A stretch of 64,000 bases of DNA from Gracilariopsis chorda. Taxonomy: Eukaryota > Rhodophyta > Florideophyceae > Gracilariales > Gracilariaceae. Of the stretch, positions 1,814-44,206 are shown in pieces. The number at the start of each line of letters is the position of its first letter. Within the stretch, counting starts at the first letter, position 1. The translations under genes were made by a program, and so were the position numbers. Under the pieces are notes generated by a model. That model saw only the letters and a program-made list of their open reading frames with translations. It ran no database searches and had not been told where the DNA came from. The stretch spans positions 62,001 to 126,000 of the forward strand of contig NBIV01000161.1 of the NCBI GenBank assembly GCA_003194525.1, given 5' to 3'.

Positions 1814-2620
1814 TGAAGTGCAACGCCCTCAGGGAGGGATTCTTGGTACTTGATTGTTTTCCCGATATTATCGGTTGTGTAGTGTGTATATGAACTACGC
1901 CCCACTACGGTGGGTATGGACACGTGGGACACGGTTTTGGGTCAATTGGCGGTTGGCCACAGTAGTGGATGTTGCCACGGAATGTGGAGTATTTTAGTTA
2001 ATTTTATTTATTATTTTCACACCCATTTCTGGGAAGCTAGTACTTAGTGCGACGGCGCACTGCCGTCGCACCAGTAAACCTTCCCCAACAAGGGACCCCA
2101 ACCTGGGGAATTGGCTCTGAGCTTTACCGCCTCCGCGTGTTCTCAACTCCTCCTTGGAGGGAAGCACCGTAGTGTACGGAAGTTCACCCCCCTTGCACAT
2201 CTAAAGGAGACCCATCATTGGGAGTACTAATTGTTCCAATCATATTGGTGTTTCGCCCTGTATAGGGAGTCCTGTCCACCGGCATTGCCGTATCTACTCG
2301 TCGCTCTCGCGACCCACTCGTCCTTCCTCTTTCCCCTTTTTAGGGTAGCACCTCCCGCTATCCGCGGCCCTCGTGTGCGCATCCGCTCACACACCCCCAC
2401 TTACGTGGAAACATACCTCTACTGAGGATCACACCCCGCTCACGCGGATACCGATTCTTCGCCTTCACCTCCCTGCGCGAGTCGCGACAGGTGTCCCTGG
2501 TCTTACAAACCGGCTTCGCCGTGACACCTCTGGGAGGGCTCTACCCAACTGGGTTCACCTCGTGAGAGGAAGATCCCGGACGTCTTTCGGTGTTTTTCCC
2601 CTTTGGGGCATTGCACCACA
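1814..2620 (+). repeat. 5' LTR of gypsy A
   Basis: 807 bp, TG...CA. It is the same as 12547-13353 at every position I compared. It contains a 10-bp perfect hairpin with a 5-nt loop at 2047-2071 (GTGCGACGGC arm) and many 4-6 bp hairpins. Confidence 0.92.
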
Positions 2621-2623
2621 AAG

Positions 2624-2645: not shown

Positions 2646-2725
2646 TTTTTGCTTTCCCTCTTACGAGGTTTGTTTTCATTCACCGGAAGTTCCGTGATCG
2701 TTTCCCGTCGTAACGGTATTTTCTC

Positions 2726-4900
2726 ATGTCGAGAAATCCCTCCGACGCGGAGCCAGTGGTTACGCGTAGTCGCTCCCGCGACAACGCGGACACTTCCGAA
2801 GTTCGGTTCGTACCCCGTATCCCTATACGGACAAGTTCCAGCCGTGCTGGCGCCGCTTCATCGCGGAATGATACCCCCGACCGGGAACCCCGGAACCTCC
2901 TTTTGCCCTCGTTATCACCCCCGCAGGGGAATGCAGCATCGACTCCGGCTGTTGCCGCAGTGCCCCAGGCACCCCGGCCTGCTCCCGCTGTCGCGGCTTC
3001 AAGCCCCCGTGAAACGGGTGATAACACCCCCCAGGGAACTTCCCTGGAATCCCAGGTCCGCGCTCTGTGGACCGCCCATGACACCCTTGTAGGGGAACTA
3101 AAATCCCTCCAAGAGGTGGTCTCGGCAACCCCCGTAAAGGAGGTCGCCGAGGAGCTCCGTATTTTACGGTCTGATGTCAACTCCGTGTTGGAGAGTTTGG
3201 GACAACCCGCCGCCTTCATCGAAGGAGTTGAAGCCCGATTTGATCGGATTGGTGCCCGCCTGGAGACGCTGGAGCAGTTCGTCCTCATGGACAAACCATC
3301 CCCGGGTGATCCGGTAAACGAGGCATCGCACAACGACCAGCTTGCTGGGAAGAAGAAACGCCGTCACCGACGGAAACACCACCGAAAATATTCGGACTCC
3401 GACTCTTCGACATCGTCGGACTCATCCCGAAACCATTCGGTTAGCTCGAGCTCCTCGGACTCCGACTCGGAGGACGAGAAGCGAGGCTACTCCTCCCGCT
3501 CGAAGCGGTCATCGGCCACTGAAGGTGTGGTCCGAACCCGCCAGAAGGGGAGAAGACACCCCGGTCTCCGGGAATTGAAACCGACAAACCCGGATTACCG
3601 GAAGCTTTTATCATACCGGTACTACCGGCTTGAAGATTCGTCACTTGGACGTACGCCCCGTGGTACGGGAAAGGTGCGAGAATGCATTAAGCGAATGCAG
3701 CTCTCGCTCCGCAACCAGTATTTTACTGGAGAGGACCCAGTCCTAGTACTGGATTTCCTATCCCGCTTTGTAGCGGAGGCCGATATCCTCGGTATGAATG
3801 AGGGACAAGCCTATTTGGCTTTACCGTATTTCTTACGGGGAGTGGCCGAGGACCAATACACCTCTGTCCGAGGATCTTCTCGCGCCTCCGAGGGAGGAGT
3901 TACTTGCTGGCCGGAGGCTGTGCAGTATCTTCTGCGCTCCTACGCCACCAACACCGCTATTCAGCAGGCTATCCTCGCTTTGCGAGATACACGCCAGCAT
4001 GCTGGAGAGACCGAGACCGATTACTCGGTGCGCCTTAACAAGGCTTTCCACAGATGTGGTAACGTATACCCCGCTGGGGAGCGCAGTACCATGTTCATTG
4101 ATGGTCTTGACCCGGCAATCCGGAGTTTAGTTACCCGTTATCGGAAGGACAAGCGAAGGATCACCTACCTCGAGCTGGTCCAACACGCTCGAGCGGAAGG
4201 GGATGCACTTCGTGCAAGAACTCCGAACAATCGGTCTAAATCCGCCAAGGCGTTGTTGCTGGAAAGCGAAGCTTCCTCTCTCCCGCTCACCGCGGATGGG
4301 AACCCTGGACAGGGATTTGATACCGTGCATTTAGCGCAGGGGGATGGCGTGTCGATACCCACCAGTGAGTTACCGTCAACGACGGAGATGACCCATGATA
4401 CGGGAACAGAAGATCCCGTTCTATACGGTGGTAACAGTCGGGTTCAACCCCAACGACTCCCGTTTTCAAACGGTCAATCCCGTTATCAACGGCCTGGATG
4501 GACTGACACCCGCCCTGCGGTTCGCTTCTCCGATACTCGGAATAATAATCCGCGTGTCGCGGTGCTGGCTCTCATTTGCCACCTGTGCTATGCCCATGGC
4601 CATACCTCTCCTCAGTGTATTTGTTCACTGAAGGATATGGCCAAGGTGGTGGCAAATTATGAGGCCCTCACTCCAGAGGAGAAACGTTCCGTCCCGACGG
4701 CTTCCTACCTCCGTGCTAAAACGGACTTTTCTCACGCCCTACCACAGACCCCGCGTGCGCGGCAAGCTTCATACACCCCGATTCGGGAGATCACGCAACC
4801 ATCCGTTGCAACCCCCGCTTATGCGGATAGAAACCCCCGTCAACGGGATGAAGCACTCGTTGTCGAGGAAACCAACCCACCGCCGAAGGCGGAAAACTAA
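2726..4900 (+). CDS. gag: Gag polyprotein of chromovirus A
   Basis: Intact 724-codon ORF with an ATG start. Gag forms the cytoplasmic virus-like particle and binds element RNA. Residues about 20-110 are Pro/Ser/Arg-rich and disordered. A basic stretch (KKKRRHRRKHHRK) is followed by a Ser/Asp-rich RS-like segment at about 205-280. The conserved capsid region of the Retrotrans_gag type follows at about 315-440 (LRNQYFTGEDPVLVLDFLSR). One CCHC zinc knuckle is present, C618-x2-C621-x4-H626-x4-C631. The gene overlaps the pol frame from 4852 to its TAA at 4898-4900; the pol frame lies at -1. Copy B has the same gene with stops. Third-codon positions are shaped by dense short inverted repeats. The family assignment is firm; the role of the RS-like part is unknown. 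Confidence 0.93.
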   Translation: MSRNPSDAEPVVTRSRSRDNADTSEVRFVPRIPIRTSSSRAGAASSRNDTPDREPRNLLLPSLSPPQGNAASTPAVAAVPQAPRPAPAVAASSPRETGDNTPQGTSLESQVRALWTAHDTLVGELKSLQEVVSATPVKEVAEELRILRSDVNSVLESLGQPAAFIEGVEARFDRIGARLETLEQFVLMDKPSPGDPVNEASHNDQLAGKKKRRHRRKHHRKYSDSDSSTSSDSSRNHSVSSSSSDSDSEDEKRGYSSRSKRSSATEGVVRTRQKGRRHPGLRELKPTNPDYRKLLSYRYYRLEDSSLGRTPRGTGKVRECIKRMQLSLRNQYFTGEDPVLVLDFLSRFVAEADILGMNEGQAYLALPYFLRGVAEDQYTSVRGSSRASEGGVTCWPEAVQYLLRSYATNTAIQQAILALRDTRQHAGETETDYSVRLNKAFHRCGNVYPAGERSTMFIDGLDPAIRSLVTRYRKDKRRITYLELVQHARAEGDALRARTPNNRSKSAKALLLESEASSLPLTADGNPGQGFDTVHLAQGDGVSIPTSELPSTTEMTHDTGTEDPVLYGGNSRVQPQRLPFSNGQSRYQRPGWTDTRPAVRFSDTRNNNPRVAVLALICHLCYAHGHTSPQCICSLKDMAKVVANYEALTPEEKRSVPTASYLRAKTDFSHALPQTPRARQASYTPIREITQPSVATPAYADRNPRQRDEALVVEETNPPPKAEN

Positions 4901-7900
4901 CTGAGGGAGTCTCCCCTTTGGGAGAGGCGTCCTCAAAAACGAGGCTGTTGGCGCCCGAGGCGTCCTCGCCTCGCTCCCCGGTGAAAGTCCTCTCGAGGAA
5001 AGACACCGCTGACGCGGACTCTGCGCACCTCGGTGTGTTGCGTCGCCCGTGGATACGGAGTAAAAATCCCCGGATTCCCGGTAGAGTCTTGGTCTTGGCC
5101 AAGCGCAATTATAAGGTCTATGCCGACCTTGGCCTTGACCCCCAGTTTATGGTGAGGTTTCTCACCGTCCTGGATACAGGTGCAGGCCCCAACTTTGTCG
5201 TGGAATCATTGTTACCCCCGCTTGTGCGGTCGCGTATCCGCTCTGACGCGGTCCCCGACATTTCGGATGCGAACAACAATCCGTTACAAACGGTGGGCAC
5301 AGTGGACCTCGTCGTGAGACTTGGTACATCTGTGGTGAAGTTGGACTTCATCGTTTGCCGTTCACTGGCAGCACCAGTCATACTGGGATGTGATTACTGC
5401 GACAGATTTGTCGACGCAATCAGGCCCCGCCTCAGGCGTGTAGAACTTGACGACGGATCGTCGGTTCCGATTGTTCGCCGCCCGCTAAAGCGGTCCTCTC
5501 GGAAACAAGTTCCGCTCCCTGCTGCGCAGGAACCACCGCCCGCGTCCCGCGAGTCCACCAAGCTCCGCGTCGCTGCCTCGGTTTCTATACCGGCGGAGTC
5601 CCAAGTCTGGGTACAGGTAAATTCCCGTCAACACGGTCTTCGGGTTATACAACCCCTCGCCTCGTTGTACGAGAAATCCCAGCTGGCGCTGGCTAATGGA
5701 ATTGTCTCCATTTCCCCGGATGTTCCTTTCCGGATATTGGTTGCCAACCTTGGCAAACACCCCCAGTATCTGGTCAAACACCAAGTAATTGGGAGTGTAA
5801 CCCCCCATCCTATGGGAATGCTGCCAACGAAGATGACAGCCGCCGATGTACTCGGAGTTACCACCTCTTCTGAGGAGTTCACCCCGCCGTCCGAAGACGT
5901 CAAGTCTAAGGAGGGGGAGGAAACCGCTACTTCAGCGTCGAACATACCGAGTAACTCGGAATTGCGAACCACACCTGTTCCACAGGACAATGCTCCATCG
6001 AGCAATGACCGGATTGATCCGGAAAAAGCACTTGAAGCGCTGGACTTCAGCCACGTGCCAGAGTCGCACCGCAACAAACTCCGTACTATGTTACGGGAAT
6101 TCACCACAATGTGGGATGGCTCGCTTGGCGAGATTGATGCAACGGAACACCGGATCGATTTAATCCCCGGTGCGCGACCGGTTGCACAACCCCCTTACAG
6201 GGCAGGTCCGAAAGCTCGGGAAGAGGAGCAGTCCCAAGTGGACAAGATGCTCCGCGCAGGTGTGATTGAGCCCGCTCAATCACCCTGGGCATCCCCAGTT
6301 GTACTGGCTTTAAAGGCCGACGGAACCTGGAGGTTCTGTGTCGACTACCGCCGGCTCAATGCCGTGACTGTTAGGGACACGTACCCCATCCCTCGTATGG
6401 ACGAGTGCATTGACTCCCTTGGAGAGGCCAACGTGTTCACGGCCCTTGATGCCAATTGGGGATATTGGCAAGTACCTGTCAGACAGGAGGATCGCGACAA
6501 AACCGCATTCACCTGCCATGCAGGAACGTACCGCTTCAAGCGGATGCCATTTGGGTTAACCAACGCCCCCGCCACCTTTCAGCGTGCAGTAGATATCCTA
6601 CTCAACCGCTTTAAGTGGCGGAGTTGTCTGGTCTACCTTGATGATATTATCATCTTCTCCAACTCGTTGGACGACCATCTCACTCACGTCCGAGACGTGC
6701 TGACCGTACTCCGCGATGCGGGAATTACCCTCAAGTTGAGGAAATGCGAGTTTTTCACAGATACTGTGAAGTATCTGGGTCACATTATCCGTCCTGGACG
6801 GTTAGCGATCGAGAAAGCTCGAGTCAAATCCCTCGTTGAGGCGAAAGAACCCCGTACTCAAACGGAACTGCGCTCCTTTCTGGGGCTGGTCAACGTCTAT
6901 CGACGGTTTATCCCGAACTTTTCGGATACTGCAGCGCCCCTGAACGCGTTGTTGCGAAAGGGGAACCCCCCAAAACTGGGAACATTTACGCCCGAGCAAT
7001 CGGAAGCCTTTAACTCCTTGAAGGAGGCTGTCACATCAGCACCAATCCTACATCTCCCAAAACTTGGGTTGCCATACTCCGTAGATACGGACTCGAGCGA
7101 CTACCAAGTCGGGTGTGCTCTTTTTCAAACCACCCCCGAGGGGGAACGACACCCAATTGGTTATTGGTCGCGCTCGCTCAATGTCCATGAGCGGAACTAC
7201 TCCGTATCGGAGAAAGAGTGCCTCGCCGTCGTATGGGCGATGACCACTCTGCGCCCCTACCTTATGGGAGTCCATTTCACCGTGTACACGGATCATTCCT
7301 CACTGAGGTGGTTAATGAATATCTCCGACCCGTCGGGACGCCTCATGCGCTGGAGACTCCGCCTCGCGGAATATGACTTCCAAATCATTTATAAAAAGGG
7401 CGCGCAGAACACCCAAGCCGACGCTCTGTTGCGTTTACCCACAAGTGGGGAGGCACTCCCAACGGAGGATGATGAAGTCCCATGTTTCATGGCAATGGAC
7501 CCGGATGATCCGGAATGTGCCGTCGAGGCTGAGCCAGAAAACTGGGACGAAGATGCTGACTTCGACTACCTACTCGCATCGCGAGATGATTCTGAGAAAC
7601 CCATACCGGGAAATTATGTACCGGTTGAGACCGAGGAAATGATCCGAGAACAATTCGGGGACCCCTTCTGTACAAGGATACGTGCACGCCTCAACGGCGG
7701 AGAGAACCTCCCCTTCGGGGTGAACGACATTGGTTACCTCGTGAGGACCGTCGAGGCTACCCCACAAGTTGTGGTACCGCACACGCTACAGAAGCGGATA
7801 TTGCACCTTTCGCATTACCCGAAACTCGGGGGACACTCCGGTGGGAGGAAGCTTTATCTAACCCTTCGCAGGGATTTCTACTGGCCCGCCATGGCGGTTG

Positions 7901-9555
7901 ATTGCTACGCTACGGTGCGGTTTTGCACGCAATGCGCGAAGAACCGGGTCAAACTCCGGAAGCACTCCAAACGGATGAAGCTATTCCCCGCCAGGGCGCC
8001 GCTCGAGTTTGTCGCAATTGACATTCTCGGACCATTGCTCTCTACCAGGAGAGGCAACAAGTTCCTACTCGTTATTACGGACAGGTTCTCGAAATTAGTT
8101 CGGACAGTCCCTCTAAAGAGGATTACCGCCTACACGGTCGCTCACGCCTTTGTGCGGCATTGGGTGTTTGCCTACGGACCTCCTTTGGAGCTACTTTCCG
8201 ACAACGGGAAACAGTTCGCATCGCGATTTTTCCAGGACGTCTGTCGGATACTGGACGTGAAGAATCTCTTCACGACCACGTATCATCCCCAGTCTAATGG
8301 GCAGGTCGAGCGTTTCAACCGGACAATGCTCGCAGCTCTCCGTGCTTACACGGCTGACCACCCCAAGACTTGGGATATCTACACGGATGCCGTGACCTTT
8401 GCGTACAATACGCAGGTACACCGGACTACCGGAATATCCCCTTTCGAGTTGGTCCTTTCACGGACACCCCCGCCAATGGCGTTGGAATCCCAACCTACGT
8501 TGGACGCGTTCCCTTCTGTGAAGGATTACCGCCAGAAGTGGAAAGCATGGCTGACCAAGCTGGTACCCGCAGCACGGAAGGCGATGGACCACGCCCAAGC
8601 CGTCTACAAACGGAATTTCGATGCTCGCTTGCGAGGAGGCAAACCGGAACAGATCAACTCCGGGGACTTCGTATTCGTCCGCAAGGAGTACTACAACCCT
8701 GAAAGGGAGAAGCACCATAAGCTCTCGCCTGTGGCGGATGGTCCTTTCAAGGTTATCTCCGTCACGACGGACACAGTGGTTGTGGAAATGGGTGACGCGC
8801 ATGAGCGGTTATCTCGCGATCGCATCGTGCTAGCTCCGCCACCCTCGACTGAGGCTGCACCAGCTACGCTGGACCCTACGCTGGAATATGGCTCTGCATC
8901 CGATACATCGGTGGTGAGACGGCCTACCGTGCTACCACACCCCTCCCGGGGACTCTCAGACCTACCGACCCTGTCGGACTCACCGGCTCAGCCGGGTAAT
9001 TCGGGCCTCTCTGTGCCCGCCCCTATGGCGCGAATCTACACCCGCCAGGCGGGGCATGTTATCCCTTATCCCGCCGCTCCGTCTCAGGAGGGGGAGGAGA
9101 ACACTCGTTTTCGAGGAATGAGATCGCCGTCGCAACGGGAAACACGCCGTACCATACGGACAACTGACCGCGGAGCACGGAGTATCTCACGCGACACTAA
9201 TCCCCCGTCCTCGGGCAGCGCTGTGCAACAGGAACCAGACGCGCAGGTCCCGCAAAGGCGGCAAATACACCGTGTTACACGGGAAGCTGAAACGCAGCTA
9301 CCGCACACCCCTGTCAGGGAAGGATCCCCGATACGGGAGTACGGCGACAATCGCCCTCAATCCCCTGAGCAGGGAGATGCCTCAAAGCCGCCATTGGCGG
9401 AAGTCCCCGCGGAAGCGGTTCAATCAGGTCGCTCAGACCCGCGCCCCGCGGAGAAGAGGCGCCCAGATACACCAGCGCCGCTGGGAAATACCCACACCCC
9501 TATCGGGGAAAAGGGTAGCCAAGCCGCATCCGAAGCTTCAGGCCCTGGCGCGTAG
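4852..9555 (+). CDS. pol: Pol polyprotein of chromovirus A: protease, RT, RNase H, integrase
   Basis: Open frame with no ATG until 5149; residues are counted here from codon 4918. The aspartic protease has DTGA at about D86. Reverse transcriptase has YLDD at 573-576. RNase H has catalytic residues near D723, E765/E767 and D792, and ends ADALLRLP where copy B and most relatives have ADALSRLP. Integrase has H963-x9-H973-x29-C1003-x2-C1006 zinc binding and a D1035, D1095, E1131 core (35 residues between the last two), then a GPF motif (ADGPFKVIS). A Pro-rich tail follows. TAG at 9553-9555 ends the ORF, but the same frame continues open from 9556 to 10302 and copy B has no stop at that point, so the stop is probably a secondary nonsense mutation. 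All catalytic residues are kept. Confidence 0.92.
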   Translation, partial: STRCRGNQPTAEGGKLTEGVSPLGEASSKTRLLAPEASSPRSPVKVLSRKDTADADSAHLGVLRRPWIRSKNPRIPGRVLVLAKRNYKVYADLGLDPQFMVRFLTVLDTGAGPNFVVESLLPPLVRSRIRSDAVPDISDANNNPLQTVGTVDLVVRLGTSVVKLDFIVCRSLAAPVILGCDYCDRFVDAIRPRLRRVELDDGSSVPIVRRPLKRSSRKQVPLPAAQEPPPASRESTKLRVAASVSIPAESQVWVQVNSRQHGLRVIQPLASLYEKSQLALANGIVSISPDVPFRILVANLGKHPQYLVKHQVIGSVTPHPMGMLPTKMTAADVLGVTTSSEEFTPPSEDVKSKEGEETATSASNIPSNSELRTTPVPQDNAPSSNDRIDPEKALEALDFSHVPESHRNKLRTMLREFTTMWDGSLGEIDATEHRIDLIPGARPVAQPPYRAGPKAREEEQSQVDKMLRAGVIEPAQSPWASPVVLALKADGTWRFCVDYRRLNAVTVRDTYPIPRMDECIDSLGEANVFTALDANWGYWQVPVRQEDRDKTAFTCHAGTYRFKRMPFGLTNAPATFQRAVDILLNRFKWRSCLVYLDDIIIFSNSLDDHLTHVRDVLTVLRDAGITLKLRKCEFFTDTVKYLGHIIRPGRLAIEKARVKSLVEAKEPRTQTELRSFLGLVNVYRRFIPNFSDTAAPLNALLRKGNPPKLGTFTPEQSEAFNSLKEAVTSAPILHLPKLGLPYSVDTDSSDYQVGCALFQTTPEGERHPIGYWSRSLNVHERNYSVSEKECLAVVWAMTTLRPYLMGVHFTVYTDHSSLRWLMNISDPSGRLMRWRLRLAEYDFQIIYKKGAQNTQADALLRLPTSGEALPTEDDEVPCFMAMDPDDPECAVEAEPENWDEDADFDYLLASRDDSEKPIPGNYVPVETEEMIREQFGDPFCTRIRARLNGGENLPFGVNDIGYLVRTVEATPQVVVPHTLQKRILHLSHYPKLGGHSGGRKLYLTLRRDFYWPAMAVDCYATVRFCTQCAKNRVKLRKHSKRMKLFPARAPLEFVAIDILGPLLSTRRGNKFLLVITDRFSKLVRTVPLKRITAYTVAHAFVRHWVFAYGPPLELLSDNGKQFASRFFQDVCRILDVKNLFTTTYHPQSNGQVERFNRTMLAALRAYTADHPKTWDIYTDAVTFAYNTQVHRTTGISPFELVLSRTPPPMALESQPTLDAFPSVKDYRQKWKAWLTKLVPAARKAMDHAQAVYKRNFDARLRGGKPEQINSGDFVFVRKEYYNPEREKHHKLSPVADGPFKVISVTTDTVVVEMGDAHERLSRDRIVLAPPPSTEAAPATLDPTLEYGSASDTSVVRRPTVLPHPSRGLSDLPTLSDSPAQPGNSGLSVPAPMARIYTRQAGHVIPYPAAPSQEGEENTRFRGMRSPSQRETRRTIRTTDRGARSISRDTNPPSSGSAVQQEPDAQVPQRRQIHRVTREAETQLPHTPVREGSPIREYGDNRPQSPEQGDASKPPLAEVPAEAVQSGRSDPRPAEKRRPDTPAPLGNTHTPIGEKGSQAASEASGPGA
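4891..4925 (+). promoter_or_regulatory. Candidate -1 ribosomal frameshift signal between gag and pol
   Basis: GGAAAAC at 4891-4897 sits on the last two sense codons of gag (GAA AAC TAA). A slip of one base backwards enters the pol frame, which is open from 4852. Twelve bases downstream lies a perfect 6-bp hairpin with a CTTT loop, TCTCCC/GGGAGA at 4910-4925. The whole signal is unchanged in copy B (38920 onward). No ATG occurs in pol before 5149, so some recoding or readthrough is required. The heptamer is not the textbook X_XXY_YYZ form, so this is an inference. Confidence 0.5.
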
Positions 9556-10305
9556 CGCTCGGAAACGCTCCCCGTCGCAGACGGAATCGAAGCCCCCGTT
9601 CCGGGGAATAATTTGCGCCAACTACCGCAACGCTGCGGCGAAGAACCGAGGAACTCGGGAAAAACGCGCGCCATCGCACGCTCGAAACCGGTCGTACCGG
9701 ACGCTGCTCCTCCTCATGGAGACGGTGCACCGCACTTAGCGGCCAGGCCCCTGAAAAGGGTGTCATCGGCACCTGCCCGGCACCCCCCAAAGGGGAATTT
9801 TGACCAAAATACCGGTGTACCGGAGTTAGCCTTAGGCAACCCCCCAGTAGCCGGGGACACCACGGCGCCGCCGGAACGTACGGTGCAGAGCGCTCGTGCG
9901 CCCGGCAGGGAGGCGGTTTGCCATCCAACCACCGTGCCGCACGGGACCCCCCAGGGGATCGTGGAAACGCCGATTCCGCAGGAGCGGTCATCTTCCCGCA
10001 AACTCGCGGTTCGTGAGTTCAACCGCGAATGCGGAGTTCAAGTCCCCCGCCGGTTGGCGGTTCGCCTGGCCTACCGTGAAGACGGGAACAACGACACCCC
10101 AATGGGGAATGACTTGCCGGGGAAAACCGTGACACCACATACCCTCTTGAGGGATATTTTCCCGCATGAGCAGCGGCCACTAGGACAGCGCACGGCAACG
10201 TCGGAGTTATCGCCGAACACCCTGCTAAGGGACATTATACCGCACCGCGGACAACCCTCGCAAGGGAGTACAACCACCACCCGGCACGGCCGGCAGGTCT
10301 ACTAA
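9556..10305 (+). pseudogene. Pol C-terminal linker of chromovirus A, beyond the premature TAG
   Basis: Same reading frame as pol, Pro/Arg/Ser-rich and with low similarity to known domains. It is closely matched by 43508-44206 in copy B, where the codon corresponding to the TAG reads as glutamine. It ends at TAA 10303-10305. Copy B has a glutamate codon at that position and its own TAG two codons later. I infer that it once joined the integrase to the chromodomain. Confidence 0.65.
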
Positions 10306-10509
10306 CGAGAGTTCGTAGTAGACCGACTTGTCGGACACACCTGGGACCAGGATGGTATTCTACAATACCGCGTCCGCTGGTACGGGTACGACCCCAGTGG
10401 GGATACGTGGGAGCCAATTGAACACCTCCCACGGTCGCAGATCGTGCGATACCACCGTCAAACGGGAACTGCAGCCCCAGCCACGCTGGTTAATGCCCAA
10501 GTTGGGTAA
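10306..10509 (+). pseudogene. Integrase chromodomain of chromovirus A, cut off by a stop
   Basis: In the pol frame, directly after TAA 10303-10305. The motifs RVRWYGYDPSG and DTWEPIEHL match the chromodomain signature (YLVKW.GY...TWEP..NL type) that chromoviral integrases use to dock on histone-marked chromatin. It ends at TAA 10507-10509. Copy B carries the same domain at 44207-44410 with two internal stops. In copy A the domain itself is undamaged, but it is separated from integrase by two nonsense codons. Confidence 0.8.
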
Positions 10510-10702
10510 CGTTGCCGCGCGAGCGGAGGGCAATGAGAAAGGATAGCAAGGGTAAGTCCGTCTAAGACGGGGAATGCTAATTGGAAATCACCGTTCTAAA
10601 CGGGAAAGTTTATTCAGGGGAGCAGCTAGCTCCTCACGATACTACACTACACTAACTGGCATAGCCAGGGAAAGAATACCAGGAAAACTGGACAAAAGGA
10701 GC
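10510..10702. other. Spacer between chromodomain and antisense ORF
   Basis: Non-coding stretch with short hairpins such as CCGTCTAAGACGG. It includes the left edge (about 10677) of the segment missing from copy B. Confidence 0.5.
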
Positions 10703-12490
10703 TCACTCTTCGCCGTTGCCCGGGGCGTAACCCCCAGCAAGGCGGTAGGCCAACGCGTCCGCCATGGTGGTGACATCCCCCGATACCTCGGCAGCGCTAA
10801 GACCGGCACCCCGGAGAAAACGCGCGATGATCTCGTTTTCATTCGCCGTTACCCCGCTGGGGATAGAAGGTCCGGCACTCGCCGCCGAAGGGTCAGCAGC
10901 CGGCTCGGCCGGAGGTACCCCCCCTGGGGAAGCTTCCGCGCTAGCGCCGGTGTCCTCTACGTCCATCTCCCCGGGCTCTTCCGGATCGTTATCGACCATT
11001 GGGTCATCCCCGCCGTATGCGCGGTAGTAATCGTCAGAATCGACGTACCCCACCGGGTGGTCTTCCGGCACATGCCGGGGCGCATCGCGAAGTTCGCGCG
11101 CCTCCTCGGAGGAAATTTCCCGGAACTCCCAGGGGTCGAAGTAGATAAAATCACCCGCAAGGGCGGTGTTTCTACCCAGTCCCGGGCCACCGGTGTTACC
11201 GCTGCCGCCATCCAGACGACCGCTTTGCTCCAGCGGGACCTCACTCCAGCTAACGCTGTCGATGTACCCAAGTAATTGGAGGACCTCTTCATTGTTGGCC
11301 TGGCCCCCAAGGGGGATGCGAAGATCCAGGTTTCGGATCGCTGCCCGCACGCGCGGTTGAAGGAACCAGAGACGATACTGGTCGTACGCCTCGTTGAGGA
11401 TATAAGCCGCATTGCGGGCCGCCCACTCCGTAACCACTACGGACCACAACCCCGACCGGGGATCCTGCATGAGCAGCGAACCGAGGTACGTAAGTACCGG
11501 CGGAAGTTCTACGTAGCACCCCCGGCAGGCTTCATGGAAGCGCCACCACTCGGGGAGTGCTACATACCGACCTAGTCGGTGAGGCGGCGCAATCCGCTCT
11601 ATCTCCACGTTCTGATACGGGATAATGTACCCGAATCGGGATCGCCAACGCCGCTCGTAGCGGATGAAGTTTTGGAGAAAGTTGGACCGGTATTGCCGGG
11701 GAAGGTACCTGAACTCCGCCCGAATAATCGGTCGCTCCCAGCAAAGGGCCTCTTGCCGCGCTGCGGGGAAATTCCTCCAAGCGAGGGTCTCGAGGCGGAA
11801 CAGGTTCTCGCCGTACCCAATCTCCCCGCGAGTGCGGAAGTAGCTAATGTCGAAGCCAAACTCCGGTGGGACCGGTACATCGAACGGAGCCCGGCTCTGC
11901 CGTTGGTACGCCATGCGCGTCAGCGCGGTCTGCGCCGCAGCGAAGGTCTCGCCCGAGTTTCTTCGGAGGTGGTGACGCGGAATCGCAATCCGGTGACGCC
12001 AATCCCACGATGTGGTGACTGCTCTGGGCAGATCCCCCGGAAGGGTGTCTGAACCATCCGCATAAGCGGTGACCAACCCCTCATTGAGGACAGCGACCGG
12101 GTGAAACCACGGGGCAAGGCGCAGGCGCGACGCGTGATTCCGATTCATCGGGTTGAGCCCCACCAGGGTGTTGTAGGTTGGCCAGTTGGACACCGGAGTG
12201 GTCCCGGAGGACACCACCGAAGGTGGTAGTGCGAAGGGATGGTCGGCTTCAGCAGCCGTATTTCCCGGTTGTACCGGATTTCGATCGCCCTGAGGCAGGG
12301 GAACTGACCGGAAACCGGTGGTGTATCGCCCGAGAAGTCTCGGAGGTTGGCTGTGGTTGTTGATGTTGTTGTCGTCGTTCATTTCTCCCTTGTCGAGGGT
12401 GGCTGTTGTTGTCGTTTGTGTACTTGAGGACTCTGGTGCAGAGGAATATACCGGAGAACCGGAGACAAAGCACTTGCTTTTATCACCCAT
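10703..12490 (-). CDS. Antisense 595-aa ORF of unknown function inside gypsy A
   Basis: Intact ORF with an ATG start, running opposite to gag-pol between the chromodomain and the 3' LTR. The N-terminus is Ser/Thr/Asn-rich. A folded-looking middle (about residues 100-430) is rich in Trp, Tyr, Arg and Phe, for example SWDWRHRIAIPRHHLRR and LPEWWRFHEACRGCYVELPP. The C-terminus is Gly/Pro-rich and strongly acidic (SDDYYRAYGG, DNDPEEPGEMDVED). I see no signal peptide, membrane segment or known domain. Long antisense ORFs in the 3' region are known from some plant gypsy elements, but I cannot link this one to any. Copy B lacks nearly all of it through a ~1.8-kb deletion. Coding for so long with a non-random composition suggests a real protein; expression is unproven. 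Confidence 0.6.
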   Translation of the reverse strand: MGDKSKCFVSGSPVYSSAPESSSTQTTTTATLDKGEMNDDNNINNHSQPPRLLGRYTTGFRSVPLPQGDRNPVQPGNTAAEADHPFALPPSVVSSGTTPVSNWPTYNTLVGLNPMNRNHASRLRLAPWFHPVAVLNEGLVTAYADGSDTLPGDLPRAVTTSWDWRHRIAIPRHHLRRNSGETFAAAQTALTRMAYQRQSRAPFDVPVPPEFGFDISYFRTRGEIGYGENLFRLETLAWRNFPAARQEALCWERPIIRAEFRYLPRQYRSNFLQNFIRYERRWRSRFGYIIPYQNVEIERIAPPHRLGRYVALPEWWRFHEACRGCYVELPPVLTYLGSLLMQDPRSGLWSVVVTEWAARNAAYILNEAYDQYRLWFLQPRVRAAIRNLDLRIPLGGQANNEEVLQLLGYIDSVSWSEVPLEQSGRLDGGSGNTGGPGLGRNTALAGDFIYFDPWEFREISSEEARELRDAPRHVPEDHPVGYVDSDDYYRAYGGDDPMVDNDPEEPGEMDVEDTGASAEASPGGVPPAEPAADPSAASAGPSIPSGVTANENEIIARFLRGAGLSAAEVSGDVTTMADALAYRLAGGYAPGNGEE

Positions 12491-12546: not shown

Positions 12547-13353
12547 TGAAGTGCAACGCCCTCAGGGAGGGATTCTTGGTACTTGATTGTTTTCCCGATA
12601 TTATCGGTTGTGTAGTGTGTATATGAACTACGCCCCACTACGGTGGGTATGGACACGTGGGACACGGTTTTGGGTCAATTGGCGGTTGGCCACAGTAGTG
12701 GATGTTGCCACGGAATGTGGAGTATTTTAGTTAATTTTATTTATTATTTTCACACCCATTTCTGGGAAGCTAGTACTTAGTGCGACGGCGCACTGCCGTC
12801 GCACCAGTAAACCTTCCCCAACAAGGGACCCCAACCTGGGGAATTGGCTCTGAGCTTTACCGCCTCCGCGTGTTCTCAACTCCTCCTTGGAGGGAAGCAC
12901 CGTAGTGTACGGAAGTTCACCCCCCTTGCACATCTAAAGGAGACCCATCATTGGGAGTACTAATTGTTCCAATCATATTGGTGTTTCGCCCTGTATAGGG
13001 AGTCCTGTCCACCGGCATTGCCGTATCTACTCGTCGCTCTCGCGACCCACTCGTCCTTCCTCTTTCCCCTTTTTAGGGTAGCACCTCCCGCTATCCGCGG
13101 CCCTCGTGTGCGCATCCGCTCACACACCCCCACTTACGTGGAAACATACCTCTACTGAGGATCACACCCCGCTCACGCGGATACCGATTCTTCGCCTTCA
13201 CCTCCCTGCGCGAGTCGCGACAGGTGTCCCTGGTCTTACAAACCGGCTTCGCCGTGACACCTCTGGGAGGGCTCTACCCAACTGGGTTCACCTCGTGAGA
13301 GGAAGATCCCGGACGTCTTTCGGTGTTTTTCCCCTTTGGGGCATTGCACCACA
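12547..13353 (+). repeat. 3' LTR of gypsy A
   Basis: 807 bp, same as the 5' LTR at every position compared. It is followed by the AGACT duplication at 13354-13358. Confidence 0.92.
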
Positions 13354-25614: not shown

Positions 25615-25647
25615 ATTTGGTTTTCTGTCTACAAGCCTCCACGCTCC

Positions 25648-35827: not shown

Positions 35828-36654
35828 TGTAGTGCAACGCCCTCAGGGAGGGATTCTTGGTACTTGAACGCTTTCCCGATATTATCGGTTGTGTAGTGTG
35901 TATATGAACTACGCCCCACTATGGTGGATATGGAAACGTGGGACACGGTTATGGGTCAATTGGCGGTTGGCCACAGTAGTGGATGTTGCCACGAAATGTG
36001 GATTATTTTAGTTAATATTATTTATTATTTTCACACCCATTTCTGGGAAGCTAGTACTTAGTGCGACGGCGCACTGCCGTCGCACCAGTAAACCTTCCCC
36101 AACAAGGGACCCCAACCTGGGGAATTGGCTCTAGTTGTTGCCGCTTGCGCGCGTACTCTACTCCTCCTTGGAGGGAAACGCCGTAAACCACGGGACATCT
36201 AACCCCCTTGCACATCTAAAGAAGCCCATCCTTGGGAGTGTAGTTGTTCCAATCATATTGGTGTTTCGCCCTGTATAGGGAGTCCTGTCCACCGGCATTG
36301 CCGTATCTCTTCGTCGCTCTCACGACTCACTTTGTCCTTCTTTCCTCCTCTTCGCCCTTCCTTTTCCCCCTTTTTAGGGTAGCACCTCCCGCTATCCACG
36401 GCTCTCGTGTGCGCATCCGCTCACACACCCCCACTTACGTGGAAACATACCTCTACTGAGGATCACACCCCGCTCACGAGGATACCGATTCTTCGCCTTC
36501 ACCTCCCTGCGCGAGTCGCGACAGGTGTCCCTGGTCTTACAAACTGGCTTCGCCGTGACACCTCTGGGAGGGCTCTACCCAACTGGGTTCACCTCGTGAG
36601 AGGAAGATCCCGAACGTCTTTCGGTGTTTTTCCCCTTTGGGGCATTGCACCACA
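35828..36654 (+). repeat. 5' LTR of gypsy B
   Basis: TGTAGTGCAACGCCC...CACCACA. It has an extra TCTTTCCTCCTCTTCG-type insertion relative to A, near 36340-36360. Confidence 0.9.
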
Positions 36655-36759
36655 AAGTGGTCTCCTGACTTAGAATCGGTTTTTGTTTTCCCTCTTACGA
36701 GGTTTGTTTTTATTCACCGGAAGTTCCGTGATAGTTTCCCGTCGTAATGGTATTTTCTC

Positions 36760-38929
36760 ATGTCGAGAAATCCCTCCGATGCGGAGCCAGTGGTTACCCG
36801 TAGTCGCTCCCGCGACAACGCGGACACTTCCGAAGTTCGGTTCGTACCCCGTATCCCTATACGGACAAGTTCCAGCCGTGCTGGCGCCGCTTCATCGCGG
36901 AATGATACCCCCGACCGGGAACCCCGGAACCTCCTTTTGCCCTCGTTATCACCCCCGCAGGGGAATGCAGCATCGACTCCCGCTGTTGCCGCAGTGCCCC
37001 AGGCACCCCGGCCCGCTCCCGCTGTCGCGGCTTCAAACCCCCGTGGAACGGGCGATAACACCCCCCAGGGGATTTCCCTGGAATCCCAGGTCCGCGCTCT
37101 GTGGACTGCACATGACACCCTTGTAGGGGAACTAAAATCCCTCCAAGAGGTGGTCTCGGCAACCCCTGTAAAGGAGGTCGCCAAGGAACTCCGTATTTTA
37201 CGGTCTGACGTCAACTCCGTGTTGGAGAGTTTGGGACAACCCGCCACCTTCATCGAAGGAGTTGAAGCCCGATTTGATCGGATTGGTACCCGCCTGGAGA
37301 CGCTGGAGCAGTTCGTCCTCATGGACAAACCATCCCCGGATGATCCGGTAAACGAGGCATCGCACAACGACCAGCTTGCTGGGAAGAAGAAACGCCGTCA
37401 TCGACGGAAACACCACCGAAAATATTCGGACTCCGGTTCTTCGACATCTTCGGACTCATCCCGATACCATTCGGTTAGCTCGAGCTCCTCGGACTCCGAC
37501 TCGGAGGACGAGAAGCGAGCCTACTCCTCCCGCTCGAAGCGGCCATCGGCCACTGAAGGTGTGGTCCGAACCCGCCAGAAGGGGAGAAGACACCCCGGTC
37601 TCCTGGAATTGAAACCGACAAACCCGGAGTACCGGAATCTTTTATCATACCGGTACTACCGGCTCGAAGACTCGTCACTTGGACGTACGCCCCGTGGTAC
37701 GGGAAAGGTGCGAGAATGCATTAGGCGAATGCAGCTCTCGCTCCGCAACCAGTATTTTACTGGAGAGGACCCAGTCTTAGTACTGGATTTCCTATCCCGC
37801 TTTGTAGCGGAGGCCGATATCCTCGGTATGAATGAGGGACAAGCGTATTTGGCTTTACCGTATTTCTTACGGGGAGTGGCGGAGGCCTAATACATCTCTG
37901 TCAGAAGATCGTCTCGCGCCTCCGAGGGAGGAGTTACTTGCTGGCCGGAGGCTGTGCAGTATCTTCTGCGCTCCTACGCCACCAACACCGCTATTCAGCA
38001 GGCTATCCTCGCTTTGCGAGATACACGCCAGCGTGCTGGAGAGACCGTGACCGATTACTCGGTGCGCCTTAACAAGGCTTTCCACAGATGTGGTAACGTA
38101 TACCCCGCTGGGGAGCGCAGTACCATGTTCATTGATGGTCTTGACCCGGCAATCCGGAGTTTAGTTACCCGTTATTGGGAGGAAAAGCGGAGGATCACCT
38201 ACCTCGAGCTAGTCCAACACGCCCGAGCGGAAGGGGATGCACTTCGTGCAAGAACTCCGAACAATCGGTCTAAATCCGCCAAGGCATTGTTGCTGGAAAG
38301 TGAAGCTTCCTCTCTCCCACTCACCGCGGATGGGAACCCTGGACAGGGATTTGATACCGTGCATTTAGTGCAGGGGGATGGTTTGTCGATACCTACCAGT
38401 GATTTGCCGTCGATGACGGAGACGACCCGTGATACGGGAACAGAAGATCCCGTTCTATACGGTGGTAATGGTCGGGTCCAACCCCAACGACTCCCGTTTT
38501 CAAACGGTCAATCCCGTTATCAATGGCCTGGATAGACTGACACCCCCCCTGCGGTTTGCTTCTCCGATACTCGGAATAATAATCCGCGTGTCGCGGTATT
38601 GGCTCTCATTTGCCACCTGTGCTTTGCCCATGGCCATACCTCCCCTCAGTGTATTTTTTCACTGAAGGATATGGCCAAGGTGGTGGCAAATTATGAGGCC
38701 CTCACTCCAGAAGAGAAACGTTCCGTCCCGACGGCTTCCTACCTCCGTGCTAAAACGGACTTTTCCCCTACCACAGACCCCGCGTGCGCGGCAAGCTTCA
38801 TACACCCCGATTCGGGAGATCACGCAACCATCCGTTGCAACCCCCGCTTATGCGGATAGAAACCCCCGTCAACGGGATGAAGCACTCGTTGTCGAGGAAA
38901 CCAACCCACCGCCGAAGGCGGAAAACTAA
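36760..38929 (+). pseudogene. gag of chromovirus B
   Basis: Close homologue of the A gag with the same RS-like and capsid segments. It is broken by TAA at 37888-37890 (after FLRGVAEA), TAG at 38533-38535 where A has a Trp codon, and an indel near 38770. The zinc knuckle is intact (CHLCFAHGHTSPQC). Many hairpin arms are conserved with A while loops differ. Confidence 0.9.
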
Positions 38930-38946
38930 CTGAGGGAGTCTCCCCT

Positions 38947-41900
38947 TTGGGAGAGGCGTCCTCAAGAACGAGGCTGTTGGCGCCCGAGGCGTCCTCGCCT
39001 CGCTCCCCGGTGAAAGTCCTCTCGAGGAAAGACACCGCTGACGCGGACTCTGCGCACCTCGGTGTGTTGCGTCGCCCGTGGATACGGAGTAAAAATCCCC
39101 GGATTCCCGGTAGAGTCTTGGTCTTGGCCAAGCGCAATTATAAGGTCTATGCCGACCTTGGCCTTGACCCCCGTTTATGGTGAGGTTTCTCACCGTCCTG
39201 GATACAGGTGCAGGCCCCAACTTTGTTGTGGAATCATTGTCACCCCCGCTTGTGCGGTCGCGTATCCGCTCTGACGCGGTCCCCGACATTTCGGATGCGA
39301 ACAACAATCCGTTACAAACGGTGGGCACAGTGGACCTCGTCGTGAGACTTGGTACCTCTGTAGTGAAGTTGGACTTCATCGTTTGCCGTTCATTGGCAGC
39401 ACCAGTCATACTGGGATGTGATTACTGCGACAGATTTGTCGACGCAATCAGGCCCCGCCTCAGGCGTGTAGAACTTGACGACGGATCGTCGGTTCCGATT
39501 GTTCGCCGCCCGCTAAAGCGGTCCTCTTGGAAACAAGTTCCGCTCCCTGCTGCGCAGGAACCACCGCCCGCGTCCCGCGAGTCCACCAAGCTCCGCGTCG
39601 CTGCCTCGGTTTCTTTAACGGCTGAGTCCCAAGTCTGGGTGCAGGTAAATTCCCGTCAGCACGGTCTTCGGGTTATACAACCCCTCGTCTCGTTGTACGA
39701 GAAATCCCAGCTGGCGCTGGCTAATGGAATTGTCTCCATTTCCCCGGATGTCCCTTTCCGGATATTGGTTGCCAACCTTGGCAAACACCCCCAGTATCTG
39801 GTCAAACACCAATTAATTGGGAGTGTAACCCCCCATCCTATGGGAATGCTGCCAACGAAGATGACAGGCGCCCATGTACTCGGAGTTACCACCTCTTCTG
39901 AGGAGTTCGCCCCGCTGTCCGAAGACGTCAAGTCTAAGGAGGGGGAGGAAACTGCTACTTCAGCGTCGAACATACCGAGTAACTCGGAATTGCGAATCAC
40001 ACCTGTTCCACAGGACAATGCTCCATCGAGCGACGACCGGATTGATCCGGAAAAGGCAATTGAAGCGCTGGACTTTAGCCATGTGACAGAGTCGCACCGC
40101 GACAAACTCCGTACCATGTTACGGGTATTCACCACAATGTAGGATGGCTCGCTTGGCGAGATTAACGCAACGGAACACCAGATCGATTTAATCCCCGGTG
40201 CACGACCGGTTGCACAACCCCCTTACAGGGCAGGTCCGAAAGCTCGGGAAGAGGAGCAGTCCCAAGTGGACAAGATGCTCCGCGCAGGTGTGATTGAGCC
40301 CGCTCAATCACCCTGGGCATCCCCAGTTGTACTGGCTTTAAAGGCCGACGGAACCTGGAGGTTCTGTGTCGACTACCGCCGGCTCAATGCCGTGACCGTT
40401 AGGGACACGTACCCTATCCCTCGTATGGACGAGTGCATTGACTCCCTTGGAGAGGCCAACGTGTTCACGGCCCTTGATGCCAATTGGGGATATTGGCAAG
40501 TACCTGTCAGACAGGAGGATCGCGACAAAATCGCATTCACCTGCCACGCAAGAACGTACCGCTTCAAGCGGATGCCATTTGGGTTAACCAACGCCCCCGC
40601 CACCTTTCAGCGTGCAGTACATATTCTACTCAACCGCTTTAAGTGGCGGAGCTGTCTGGTCTACCTTGATGATATTATCATCTTCTCCAACTCGTTGGAC
40701 GACCATCTCACTCACGTCCGAGACGTGCTGACCGTACTCCGCGATGGGGGAATTACCCTCAAGTTGAGGAAATGCGAGTTTTTCACAGATACTGTGAAGT
40801 ATCTGGGTCACATTATCCGTCCTGGACGGTTAGCGATCGAGAAAGCTCGAGTCAAATCCCTCGTCGAGGCGAAAGAGCCCCGTACTCAAACGGAACTGCG
40901 CTCTTTTCTGGGGCTGGTCAACGTCTATCGACGGTTTATCCCGAACTTTTCGGATACTGCGGCGCCCCTGAACGCGTTGTTGCGAAAGGGGAACCCCCCA
41001 AAACTGGGAACATTTACGCCCGAGCAATCGGAAGCTTTTAACTCCTTGAAGGAGGCTGTCACATCAGCACCAATCCTACATCTCCCAAACCTTGGGTTGC
41101 CATACTCCGTAGATACGGACTCGAGCGACTACCAAGTCTGGTGTGCTCTTTTTCAAACCACCCCCGAGGGGGAACGACATCCAATTGGGTATTGGTCGCG
41201 CTCGCTCAATGTTCATGAGCGTAACTACTCCGTATCGGAGAAAGAGTGCCTCACCGTCGTATGGGCGATGACCACTCTGCGCCCCTACCTTATGGGAATT
41301 CACTTCACCGTGTACACGGATCATTCCTCATTGAGGTGGTTAATGAATATCTCCGACCCGTCGGGACGCCTCATGCGCTGGAGACTCCGCCTCGCGGAAT
41401 ATGACTTTCAAGTCATTTATAAAAAGGGTGCGCAGAACACCCAGGCCGACGCTTTGTCGCGGTTACCCACAAGTGGGGAAGCACTCCCAACGGAGGATGA
41501 CGAAGTCCCATGTTTCATGGCCATAGACCCGGATGATCCGGAATGTGCCATCGATGCTGGGCCAGAAAACTGGGACGAGGATGCTGATTTTGACGAACTA
41601 CTCGCATCGCGAGATGAATCTGAGAACCCGTTACCGGGAAACTTTGTGCCGGTATCACCGGAAGAAATGATCCGAGAACAATTCGACGACCCATTCTGTA
41701 CGAGGATTCGTGCCCGTCTTAACGGTAGTGAAGATCTCCCTTTCGGGGTAAACGACAAAGGCTACCTCGTAAGGAAGGTCGAAGCCCGCCCACAGATTGT
41801 GGTACCTCATTCCCTGCAGTCGCGTGTGTTACATCTATCACACTACGTCCCCATTGGAGGTCACCCAGGTGGGAGGAAACTCTACCTAACCCTGCGAAGG

Positions 41901-44206
41901 GATTTCTATTGGGCCGCCATGGCGGTGGATTGCTACGCAACCGTGCGGTTTTGTAGCGAATGCGCGAAGAATCGCGTCAAGCTCCGCAAAAATGCGAAGA
42001 AGATGAAACTATTCCCCGCAAGGGCGCCGCTCGAGTTTATCGCGATCGATATTCTCGGACCATTACTCACCACGAAACGTGGAAACAAGTTTCTACTTGT
42101 CATTACCGACCGCTTTTCTAAGCTGGTACGGACTGTCCCTCTTCGGAGGATAACCGCTCTCACTGTGGCCCAGGCTCTGGTGGCGCACTGGATTTTCGTC
42201 TACGCTCCCCCTGTGGAGGTGCTCTCCGATAACGGGAAACAGTTCGGGAGCAAGTTCTTCCAGGATGTTTGTCGCATCCTGGACGTGAAGAACTTGTTCA
42301 CGACTACCTAACACCCCCAATGTAATGGGCAATTTGAACGGTTTAACCAGACGTTACTCGCGGCGTTACGTTCCTACGTCGCAGACCACCCAAAGAACTG
42401 GGACATGTACGCTGATGCGTTAAACTACGCGTACAACACGCAGGTAAACCGGACTACCGGAGTTTCGCCATTCGAGTTGGTTCTATCCAGAACACCCCCG
42501 CCTGTGGCGCTGGAATCCCACGCTACCTTGGACAATTTCCCATCAGTGGGTATCTACCAGCAGCAATGGAAGCAATGGCTTTCCAAGCTGGTCCCCGCTG
42601 CGCGAGAGTCAATGGCACGTGCGCAAGCCGCGTACAAGCGGGATTTTGATACTCGCTTGCGAGGGAAATCGTCCCCGATTCGGGCGAATAACTACATCTT
42701 CATCAGGAAGGAGTACTACAACCTGGAACGGGAGAAGCGCCACAAACTCTCGCCTGTGGCGGATAGACCATTCAAGGTCATCTCTGTGAACACCGACACT
42801 GTCGTGGTAGAGATGGGCGACACGCGCCAACGGATTTCCCGTCATCGTGTTGTCCTTGCCCCTCCTCCCTCGTCAGAGGTAGTCCTGGATCCAGGCAACC
42901 CCGTTTCTACGGACTCTGCAACACCGGAGTCATCCGGGAGTACTAGGCCTACGGTACTACGACACCCCAGCCGGGGACTCTCAGACCTACCGACCCTGTC
43001 GGATTCACCGGCTCAGCCGGGTAATTCGGGCCTCTCAGCGCCCGCCCCTACCACGCCCGCCCCACTGGCGCGCATTTATACCCGCCAGGCGGGAAATGTT
43101 ATCCCTTATCCCGCCGCTCCGTCTAAGAAGGGGAGGAGAACACTCGATTTCGAGGAACGATATCGCCGTCGCAACGGGAAGTTGAAACGCAGTCACCGCA
43201 CACCCCGGTCAGGGAGGGATCTCCGTTACGGGAGTACGGCGACGATCGCCCTCAATCCCCTGAGCAGGGCGATGCCTCGAAGCCGCCGTTGGCGGAAGTC
43301 CCCGCGGAAGCGGTTCAATCAGGCTGATCAGACCCGCGCCTTGCGGAGAAGAGGCGCCCAGATACACTAGCGCCGCTGGGAAATCCCCACACCCAACCTG
43401 GGGAAAAAGGCAGCCAAGCCGCAGCCGAAGGTTCAGGCCCTGGCCCGCAAGCGCCGGAAACGCCTCCCGTCGTCGACGGAATTGAAGCCCCCACTGCGGG
43501 GAATAATTTGCGCCAACCCCCGCAACGCTGCGGCGAAGAACCGAGGAACTCGGAAAAAACGCACGCCATCGCACGCTCGAAACCGGTCATACCGGACGCT
43601 GCTCCTCCGCCTGGAGACGGTGCACCGCACTTAGCGGCCAAGCCCCTGAAAAGGGTGTCATCTGCACCTGCCCGGCACCCCCCAAAGGGGAATTTTGACC
43701 AAAATACCGGTGTACCGGAGTTAGCCCCAGGCAACCCGTCAGTAGCCGGGGACACCACGGCATCGCCGGAACGTATGGTGCAGAGCGCTCGTGCGCCTGG
43801 CAGGGAGGCGGTTTGCCACCCAATCACCGTGTCGCACGGGACCCCCCAGGGGATTGTGGAAATGCCGATTCCGCAGGAGCGGTCATCTTCCCGCAAACTC
43901 GCGGTTCGTGAGCTCAACCGCGAAGGCGGAGCCCAAGTCCCCTGCCGACTGGCGGTTCGCCCGCAATACCGCGAAAGCGGAAATGAACCTGCCCCAATGG
44001 GGAATGACTTGCCGGTGAAAACCGTGGCTCCACACACCCTCTTGAGGGATATCTTCCCGCATGAGCAGCGGCCGCTATCACAGCGCACGGAAACGCCGGA
44101 GTTATCGCCGAACACCCTGCTAAGGGACATTATACGGCACAGCGGGCAGCCCCCGCAAGGAAGTACAACCACCACCCGGCACGGCCGGCAGGTCTACGAA
44201 CGATAG
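38947..44206 (+). pseudogene. pol of chromovirus B
   Basis: Same domain order as A. Damage: a 1-nt deletion near 39172 before the protease DTGA; TAG at 40141-40143 for a Trp codon; TAA at 42309-42311 for the Tyr of the integrase YHPQ motif; a frame change in the C-terminal tail near 43130; TAG at 44204-44206. RT (YLDD), RNase H (ADALSRLP intact) and the integrase D, D residues remain readable in a 681-codon frame (40266-42311), but the downstream integrase motif reads NGQFER for NGQVER. Confidence 0.9.

Follow-up and report, generated by a model that had tools for sequence, protein, structure and literature searches.

A chromovirus lineage in the red alga Gracilariopsis chorda carries a near-full-length chain of near-uniform mini-hairpins

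The genomes of persistent RNA viruses show genome-scale ordered RNA structure (GORS), a genome-wide excess of folding over shuffled sequences that has little positional conservation; such structure is diffuse, and both long helices and G-U pairs occur in it. Dispersed packaging signals in MS2, satellite tobacco necrosis virus (STNV) and the pregenome of hepatitis B virus (HBV) are, in the accessible parts of the sources, many short stem-loops that vary around a shared feature, tolerate changes in position and are proposed to act cooperatively (PMC6281560; PMC7612645). For the RNA of satellite tobacco mosaic virus (STMV), the available portion of one report proposes that short local hairpins line up in a series and are bound one after another by coat protein; it counts 30 helices of 9 bp, and the free RNA folds differently (PMC3551766). 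The genomic RNAs of Ty3, Ty1 and HIV-1, probed by selective 2'-hydroxyl acylation analyzed by primer extension (SHAPE), are A-rich mosaics of stable and dynamic regions, with low-SHAPE, low-Shannon-entropy (lowSS) regions making up to 30% (Ty1, Ty3) and ~40% (HIV-1), as far as the accessible text of that work goes (PMC11381356). In the literature searched, which covered few subscription papers, we recognized no retroelement with a uniform hairpin array. Here, we describe such an array in copy A, a long terminal repeat (LTR) retrotransposon at 1814-13353 (plus strand) of a 64,000-nucleotide stretch of Gracilariopsis chorda DNA (the window; contig NBIV01000161.1, from a genome of 91.3 Mb in 1081 contigs). 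By computation, we show the enrichment, geometry, orientation and lineage restriction of its hairpins, the slow change of their stems between copy A and a second copy, B, and their covariation between families. The hairpin trait is real, strong, lineage-specific and apparently under selection.

We class the trait as genome-wide structure in an RNA-phase genome and give only a minority chance to its being a kind of its own. With GORS, the element shares the genome-wide excess and the scant conservation of position, but its unit is of fixed size, strictly Watson-Crick and provided with an oriented clamp. The nearest idea is that of dispersed packaging signals, which likewise are many stem-loops with a shared feature, here a CC...GG clamp; in the accessible part of that work, however, the motif lies in the loop (with, in MS2, a bulged A as well), whereas the element leaves the loop unconstrained and its hairpins have the CC...GG stem base in common (PMC6281560). 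Moreover, hairpin density lies far above that of packaging signals as portrayed there, with 105 perfect inverted repeats of 5-nt arms around a 3-nt loop (5+3+5) in 11.5 kb, the molecule concerned is an LTR retrotransposon, and its Gag is a candidate docking partner. STMV offers the nearest architecture, but the units of the element have 4-5 bp and our evidence is comparative rather than structural, judged against the available portion of that report (PMC3551766). Ty3, Ty1 and HIV-1 share local structure with the element, and the accessible text on them does not mention a uniform repeating hairpin unit (PMC11381356).

An earlier note on this DNA, made from its letters alone, had listed 15 hairpins of the 5+3+5 type in the gag open reading frame (ORF) of copy A (2726..4900, plus strand; 724 aa). 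All 15 are exact at their coordinates, and the sequence also shows the two related geometries that it mentioned, 6+4+6 at 2815-2830 and 7+3+7 at 3031-3047. The list was incomplete, as the ORF holds 26 perfect 5+3+5 inverted repeats, against 3.4 (standard deviation (SD) 1.7, maximum 8) in 300 synonymous-codon shuffles. The supposition that other parts of the element look the same proved right: with protein and codon usage fixed, pol (4918..9555, plus strand) contains 46 versus 6.3 and an antisense ORF (10703..12490, minus strand; 595 aa) 12 versus 3.0, and the 5' LTR (1814..2620, plus strand) has 5 versus 0.7 in dinucleotide shuffles. The stretch following pol (9556..10702, plus strand) adds 10 versus 1.3 expected. 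For the whole of copy A, 105 perfect 5+3+5 compare with 13.3 by chance; copy B, a member of the same family at 35828..45481 (plus strand), holds 78 versus 9.9 expected. The first bases of the gag hairpins fall into all three codon phases, as the note had it, with counts of 8/8/10, and neither the shuffles nor the copia elements nor the flanking DNA, the comparisons it had proposed, were equally rich in hairpins. Chance and base composition are excluded as the cause by the dinucleotide and synonymous-codon shuffles. Enrichment of 4-bp stems extends over loops of 1 to ~7 nt and is lost beyond ~9 nt. Folding energy gives a mean z of -1.40 for copy A (71 windows of 150 nt), compared with -0.62 to 0.13 for copia and two flanks.

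To define the distribution of the trait, we compared six 7-kb gypsy loci (L047-L052) with copy A. Five of them are hairpin-rich, with 35-43 perfect 5+3+5 versus 7.1-8.4, i.e. ~4.5-6 times chance. They make up three families (L048 and L049 are 99.1% and L050 and L052 97.8% identical in pol), whose pol is 62-68% identical to that of copy A. Eight shorter reverse transcriptase loci from two of these families hold 17-20 versus 3.1-4.1. The sixth locus, L051, has 5 perfect 5+3+5 versus 6.6 expected and is not enriched. The earlier note had proposed a look at related chromoviruses; among the gypsy elements compared, three families have the excess and the chromodomain gypsy L051 lacks it. Eight copia loci gave 3-7 versus 3.6-4.6, and each of the window's two copia elements holds 7, versus 3.8 and 3.9 expected. 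The flanks within the window (36 kb) show a slight excess (53 versus 35.2) of hairpins without CC bias (outer bases T13 G12 C9 A8 in 28.5 kb). At five HSP70 loci (24.5 kb), we counted 36 versus 26.6 for 5+3+5, 125 versus 98.6 for 4+4+4 and 39 versus 24.7 for 5+4+5; a host-wide habit was rejected as the cause, this excess being only slight. Overall, copia, the HSP70 loci, the flanks and L051 range from 0.6 to 1.9 times chance. As L051 is a chromodomain gypsy without hairpins, the trait belongs to one lineage, not to gypsy or to the host at large. Relatives of the element were found neither in viral contigs nor in the bacterial and archaeal genomes searched. As a side observation, L051 (7001 bases) contains 17 versus 7.0 perfect 5+12+5, a control geometry.

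Unit statistics were pooled over copy A, L047, L048 and L050 (207 hairpins of 5+3+5), leaving out the near duplicates L049 and L052. That most hairpins begin with CC and end with GG, as noticed earlier, is borne out: of the 207, 150 have C (15 have G) as their outermost 5' base, and 143 have C (17 have G) in second position. This CC...GG base is common to the hairpins of four families, with a 10:1 orientation over G, while inner stem bases are unconstrained and the loop positions of the 5+3+5 lie near background composition. CC-N9-GG occurs 401 times versus 191 expected. A sixth pair is present in only 22/207 stems (p 5e-8 at an assumed chance of 0.26). Among maximal forms, 4+4+4 is the most frequent (294 versus 93), followed by 4+3+4 (237 versus 100), 5+3+5 (185 versus 27) and 5+4+5 (77 versus 24). 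Hairpins cover 44% of copy A, where shuffles give 14%; in L047, L048 and L050, coverage is 33-39%. Their centers favor a spacing of 18-22 nt, at 1.4-1.8 times uniform in copy A and 1.2-1.7 in the others. Gaps of 5-10 nt are frequent in copy A (102 versus 62.4, SD 7.0) and gaps of ≤3 nt are scarce (21 versus 47.5, SD 5.8); L050 partly agrees on this regularity (34 versus 20.0, SD 4.2). Fourier analysis of hairpin centers gave weak peaks, the best at 20.25 nt in copy A with a power of 6.3. A thermodynamic cause of the CC...GG base is ruled out, since the energy model rates GG...CC as the more stable (-6.18 versus -5.36 kcal/mol). The orientation thus costs ~0.8 kcal/mol, which suggests recognition rather than stability. 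The earlier note had missed that the orientation runs contrary to stability, as well as the avoidance of a sixth pair, the ~20-nt pitch and the intolerance of G-U.

Comparison between families shows that part of the hairpins stay in place and some covary. In pol, perfect 5+3+5 lie at the same columns in 62/293 one-way comparisons (21%), versus 60/1420 for control loops of 8-40 nt; in gag, 20/136 (15%) are kept in place versus 18/616 controls. Covarying pairs, in which both sides have changed and are still complementary, were seen in 18/262 loci-pairs of pol versus 5/1390, at 8 columns, and are also in excess for 4+3+4 (p 4e-7) and 4+5+4 (p 4e-4). The between-family p-values for pol lie below 1e-10 and overstate independence, because the tests share families. 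The clearest example is the hairpin at 6531..6543 (plus strand; pol alignment column 1724), which reads CCGCTtcaAGCGG in copy A and CCGATtcaATCGG, TCGCTttaAGCGA and CCGTTtcaAACGG in the three other families. At 7200..7212 (plus strand; column 2393), copy A has CTCCGtatCGGAG and the three other families have CTCTGtgtCAGAG, CTCGGtgtCCGAG and CTCCGtctCGGAG. As ~79% of the 5+3+5 are not kept in place, what persists is density.

Within the family, copies A and B agree in 8800 of 9596 aligned bases, the reading frames of copy B being interrupted. Their differences number 155/3057 in stems, 123/1280 in loops and 518/5259 elsewhere, so that the frequency of change in stems (5.1%) is about half that in the remaining sequence (9.7%; Fisher p 5e-16). 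The same holds at third codon positions (63/701 in stems versus 226/1223) and in non-coding sequence (33/964 versus 154/1573), and within 5+3+5 units 38/273 loop positions and 40/910 stem positions are changed. Among the 91 alignable 5+3+5 of copy A, 72 are identical in both arms in copy B and 19 are broken; 14 more fall into gaps. For recent mutations, we used 30 near-identical copies (copy A and 29 loci) with 250 private substitutions over the first 4587 columns. Singleton sites number 75/1539 in stems, 31/650 in loops and 142/2398 elsewhere, against 33, 21 and 105 differences of copy B in the same columns. Private substitutions break 19 perfect 5+3+5 versus 25.6 (SD 4.8) at random, and 32 versus 36.2 of the 4+4+4, whereas differences of copy B break 4 versus 13.0 (SD 2.8) and 9 versus 19.2 (SD 3.4), respectively. 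The contrast between recent and older changes in stems versus the rest is significant and modest (Fisher p 0.038, and 0.009 with shared polymorphisms).

To explain these observations, we tentatively favor, at somewhat less than even chances, that selection makes the single-stranded genome of this chromovirus lineage form a chain of near-uniform mini-hairpins that docks the element's own Gag. Each unit would have a stem of 4-5 pairs, all strictly Watson-Crick and clamped at the base by 5'-CC...GG-3', and a loop of 3-4 nt without sequence constraint; short A-enriched linkers would separate the units, with a preferred pitch of ~20 nt. The folded molecule would be the sense genomic RNA: bases flanking the hairpins are A-rich on the sense strand (46-48% A at the first downstream position of CC-type 5+3+5 and 4+4+4 units), even inside the antisense ORF (0.26 versus a background of 0.19), and we therefore lean to sense RNA. 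The hairpins may serve as many equivalent, position-independent docking sites, through which Gag would select, condense and package the RNA, similar to dispersed packaging signals in some RNA viruses. A protein that reads stem base and length repeatedly along the genome would fit the free loops, the free inner sequence, the fixed size and the pitch; as selection would keep density rather than exact position, individual hairpins could come and go. Gag is the obvious candidate reader, because the trait follows one element lineage whose Gag carries a CCHC motif: we read this motif in the Gag of five hairpin-bearing elements (copy A, L047, L048, L049 and L052), and it is not present in the 384-aa gag ORF of L051. 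A function of the hairpins in docking and condensation by Gag is inferred. The near-full-length chain, apparently kept intact by natural selection, suggests that the genome of the element carries a structural code hitherto unrecognized. That this amounts to a position-independent second code laid over the protein code, in which a coating protein of the element or the host reads the CC...GG clamp of ~20-nt units in a nucleosome-like packaging of single-stranded nucleic acid, we regard as possible but rather improbable.

Several observations weigh against selection for a Gag-docking chain in sense RNA. A fold of RNA is expected to favor G-U on the sense strand, but G-U inside 5+3+5 stems is at chance (45 versus 44.7), like A-C (63 versus 49.7) and the other mismatches, and single stem changes between copies A and B yield 43 G-U and 40 A-C (22 and 31 with stems taken from B). 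Both strands give the same folding z of -1.40, so folding does not tell the strand; folding energy lies below shuffles genome-wide as in GORS, yet the equal z and the chance level of G-U do not match a property of the RNA strand that uses G-U. The A-rich flanks, the sole strand-specific sign, are modest (506 A versus 407 T, p 0.012). Covariation in gag is confined to one column (2/126 versus 2/607 controls), and in pol it is not significant for 4+4+4 (p 0.09) and 5+4+5 (p 0.11). The regularity of gaps is not significant in L047 and L048. Fourfold sites show no protection of stems within the close pairs (9/243 in stems versus 14/503 elsewhere for L050 and L052; 2/222 versus 11/500 for L048 and L049), and between families they are near saturation. 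Finally, copia elements have a zinc knuckle yet no hairpins, so the CCHC motif as such is not the cause.

RNA would not usually show such strict pairing without G-U, which single-stranded DNA, or a requirement on both strands, would account for equally well. The hairpins could act in minus-strand complementary DNA (cDNA), whose folding during reverse transcription would guard it against host enzymes or order strand transfer; alternatively, folding could be required of RNA and DNA alike, or of the sense and the antisense RNA. The equal treatment of G-U and A-C in stems is what pairing in DNA or in two strands would give, the equal folding z on both strands agrees with it, and the antisense ORF implies an antisense transcript. 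The A-rich flanks, in turn, favor one strand, also within the antisense ORF, and we know of no DNA-specific reason for the CC...GG orientation; we consider this account rather unlikely, though worth keeping in view. A different role for folded RNA would be concealment, with dense short hairpins hiding the transcript from small RNAs, single-strand nucleases and sensors of double-stranded RNA, stems of fewer than ~6 pairs being no substrate for Dicer-like enzymes. Such a role would account for density without fixed position, for the avoided sixth pair and for the high coverage of copy A. It leaves unexplained the CC...GG orientation, which costs stability, and sits poorly with the gaps of ≥30 nt in copy A (78/315, the longest 212), which leave open targets, and with the absence of hairpins from copia and L051 of the same host. 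Concealment therefore appears unlikely to us.

Selection itself has to be weighed against mutation. The earlier note had offered two causes, a selected structured genome and snap-back template switching during reverse transcription, in which imperfect inverted repeats are perfected and hairpins arise as a mutational by-product. Mutation by template switching associated with quasipalindromes would yield perfect inverted repeats, according to the accessible part of one source (PMC7202029). Arms that are strictly Watson-Crick without G-U and a trait confined to one retroelement lineage are in line with such a process. However, a signature of the type outlined there was sought in recent copies of the element and not found: the 250 private substitutions create 6 perfect 5+3+5 versus 3.8 (SD 1.8) at random, no clear excess of gains, differences of copy B create 2 versus 1.9, and 18 clusters of nearby private changes showed no evident palindrome-making pattern by eye. 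None of the 91 alignable 5+3+5 was compensated by changes in both arms between copies A and B, and 7/18 doubly changed pairs are still paired; stems are conserved rather than churned. Nor would snap-back explain why stems are oriented CC...GG, why a sixth pair is avoided or why there is a pitch. As recent mutation neither spares nor perfects hairpins detectably, lineage survival does the filtering. Thus, slow stems between copies A and B, the lack of hairpin gain in recent mutations and the covariation between families favor purifying selection on a single-stranded fold and argue against snap-back: of the two causes, the selected genome gained support, also from older differences that avoid hairpins, and the mutational one, which we now think very unlikely, did not. 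Least probable of all, and close to negligible, are palindromes in duplex DNA bound by a dimeric protein of the host or the element. The symmetry and surplus of CC-N9-GG would suit them, but the three inner pairs are arbitrary yet complementary and covarying, where a dimer site would fix bases and not complementarity, and the flanks are strand-asymmetric.

Copy A is a Ty3/gypsy LTR retrotransposon of the chromovirus type, as seen from the order of its pol domains, its LTRs with TG...CA ends, its target duplication and its chromodomain. The 5' LTR (807 bp) and the 3' LTR (12547..13353, plus strand) are identical (BLAST self-match 1814-2621 / 12547-13354, 100% identity) and flanked by the 5-bp target duplication AGACT at 1809-1813 and 13354-13358. 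A hairpin, ACCAC aaa GTGGT (2606-2650 region), straddles the junction of the 5' LTR and what is presumably the primer-binding site, starting with TGG. Gag contains a single C-X2-C-X4-H-X4-C motif at residues 618-631 and a basic run, KKKRRHRRKHHRK, at 209; a Pfam search with the gag ORF gave no match. In pol, Pfam finds RVT_1, RT_RNaseH, Integrase_H2C2 and rve, in the order reverse transcriptase - RNase H - integrase as in Ty3/gypsy. The chromodomain-coding stretch (10306..10500, plus strand; PF00385, E 2.7e-12) shares the frame of pol and lies downstream of the integrase, past two stops, that of pol at 9553-9555 and another at 10303-10305. The antisense ORF likewise has no match in Pfam; among the relatives of its protein are BWQ96_03215 of Gracilariopsis chorda (50% over 98%) and FGB62_50g12 of Gracilaria domingensis (48% over 72%). 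Of 39 gag relatives, six carry the name Agarophyton chilense; together, these relatives point to a gracilariacean red alga as the probable host. Within the genome, gag of copy A has at least 40 matches, all those listed being 99-100% identical across the full query.

Copy B has the target duplication AAAGT on both sides. Its LTR start at 35828 abuts the end, at 35827, of the match to the second of two copia-type elements (24594-28724 and 31709-35827), which lie in opposite orientation and are 69.5% identical. A solo-LTR-like piece at 54816-55584 (minus strand) shares ~72% identity with the copy A LTR; it holds 1 versus 0.8 of 5+3+5 and 7 versus 3.0 of 4+4+4 and is too short to use. Furthermore, 114-nt tandem repeats lie at 29903-30496, with related copies at 22343-23853 and a reading frame that we take to resemble Sel1-like repeats; tandem arrays of 62/73 nt (28836-29164) and 91 nt (31035-31322) bracket those at 29903-30496. 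The 64-kb window has no Rfam match and no tRNA.

If selection for a mini-hairpin chain is the right explanation, a 10-kb retrotransposon would code for its proteins, maintain an antisense gene and carry hairpins of standard size along its whole genome, all at the same time. With at least four diverged families and negative-control elements in one nucleus, the lineage would offer a natural test system for how retroelement genomes are selected and condensed. Dispersed, short and exchangeable units of structure could then be what selection chiefly maintains in the genome of a retroelement.

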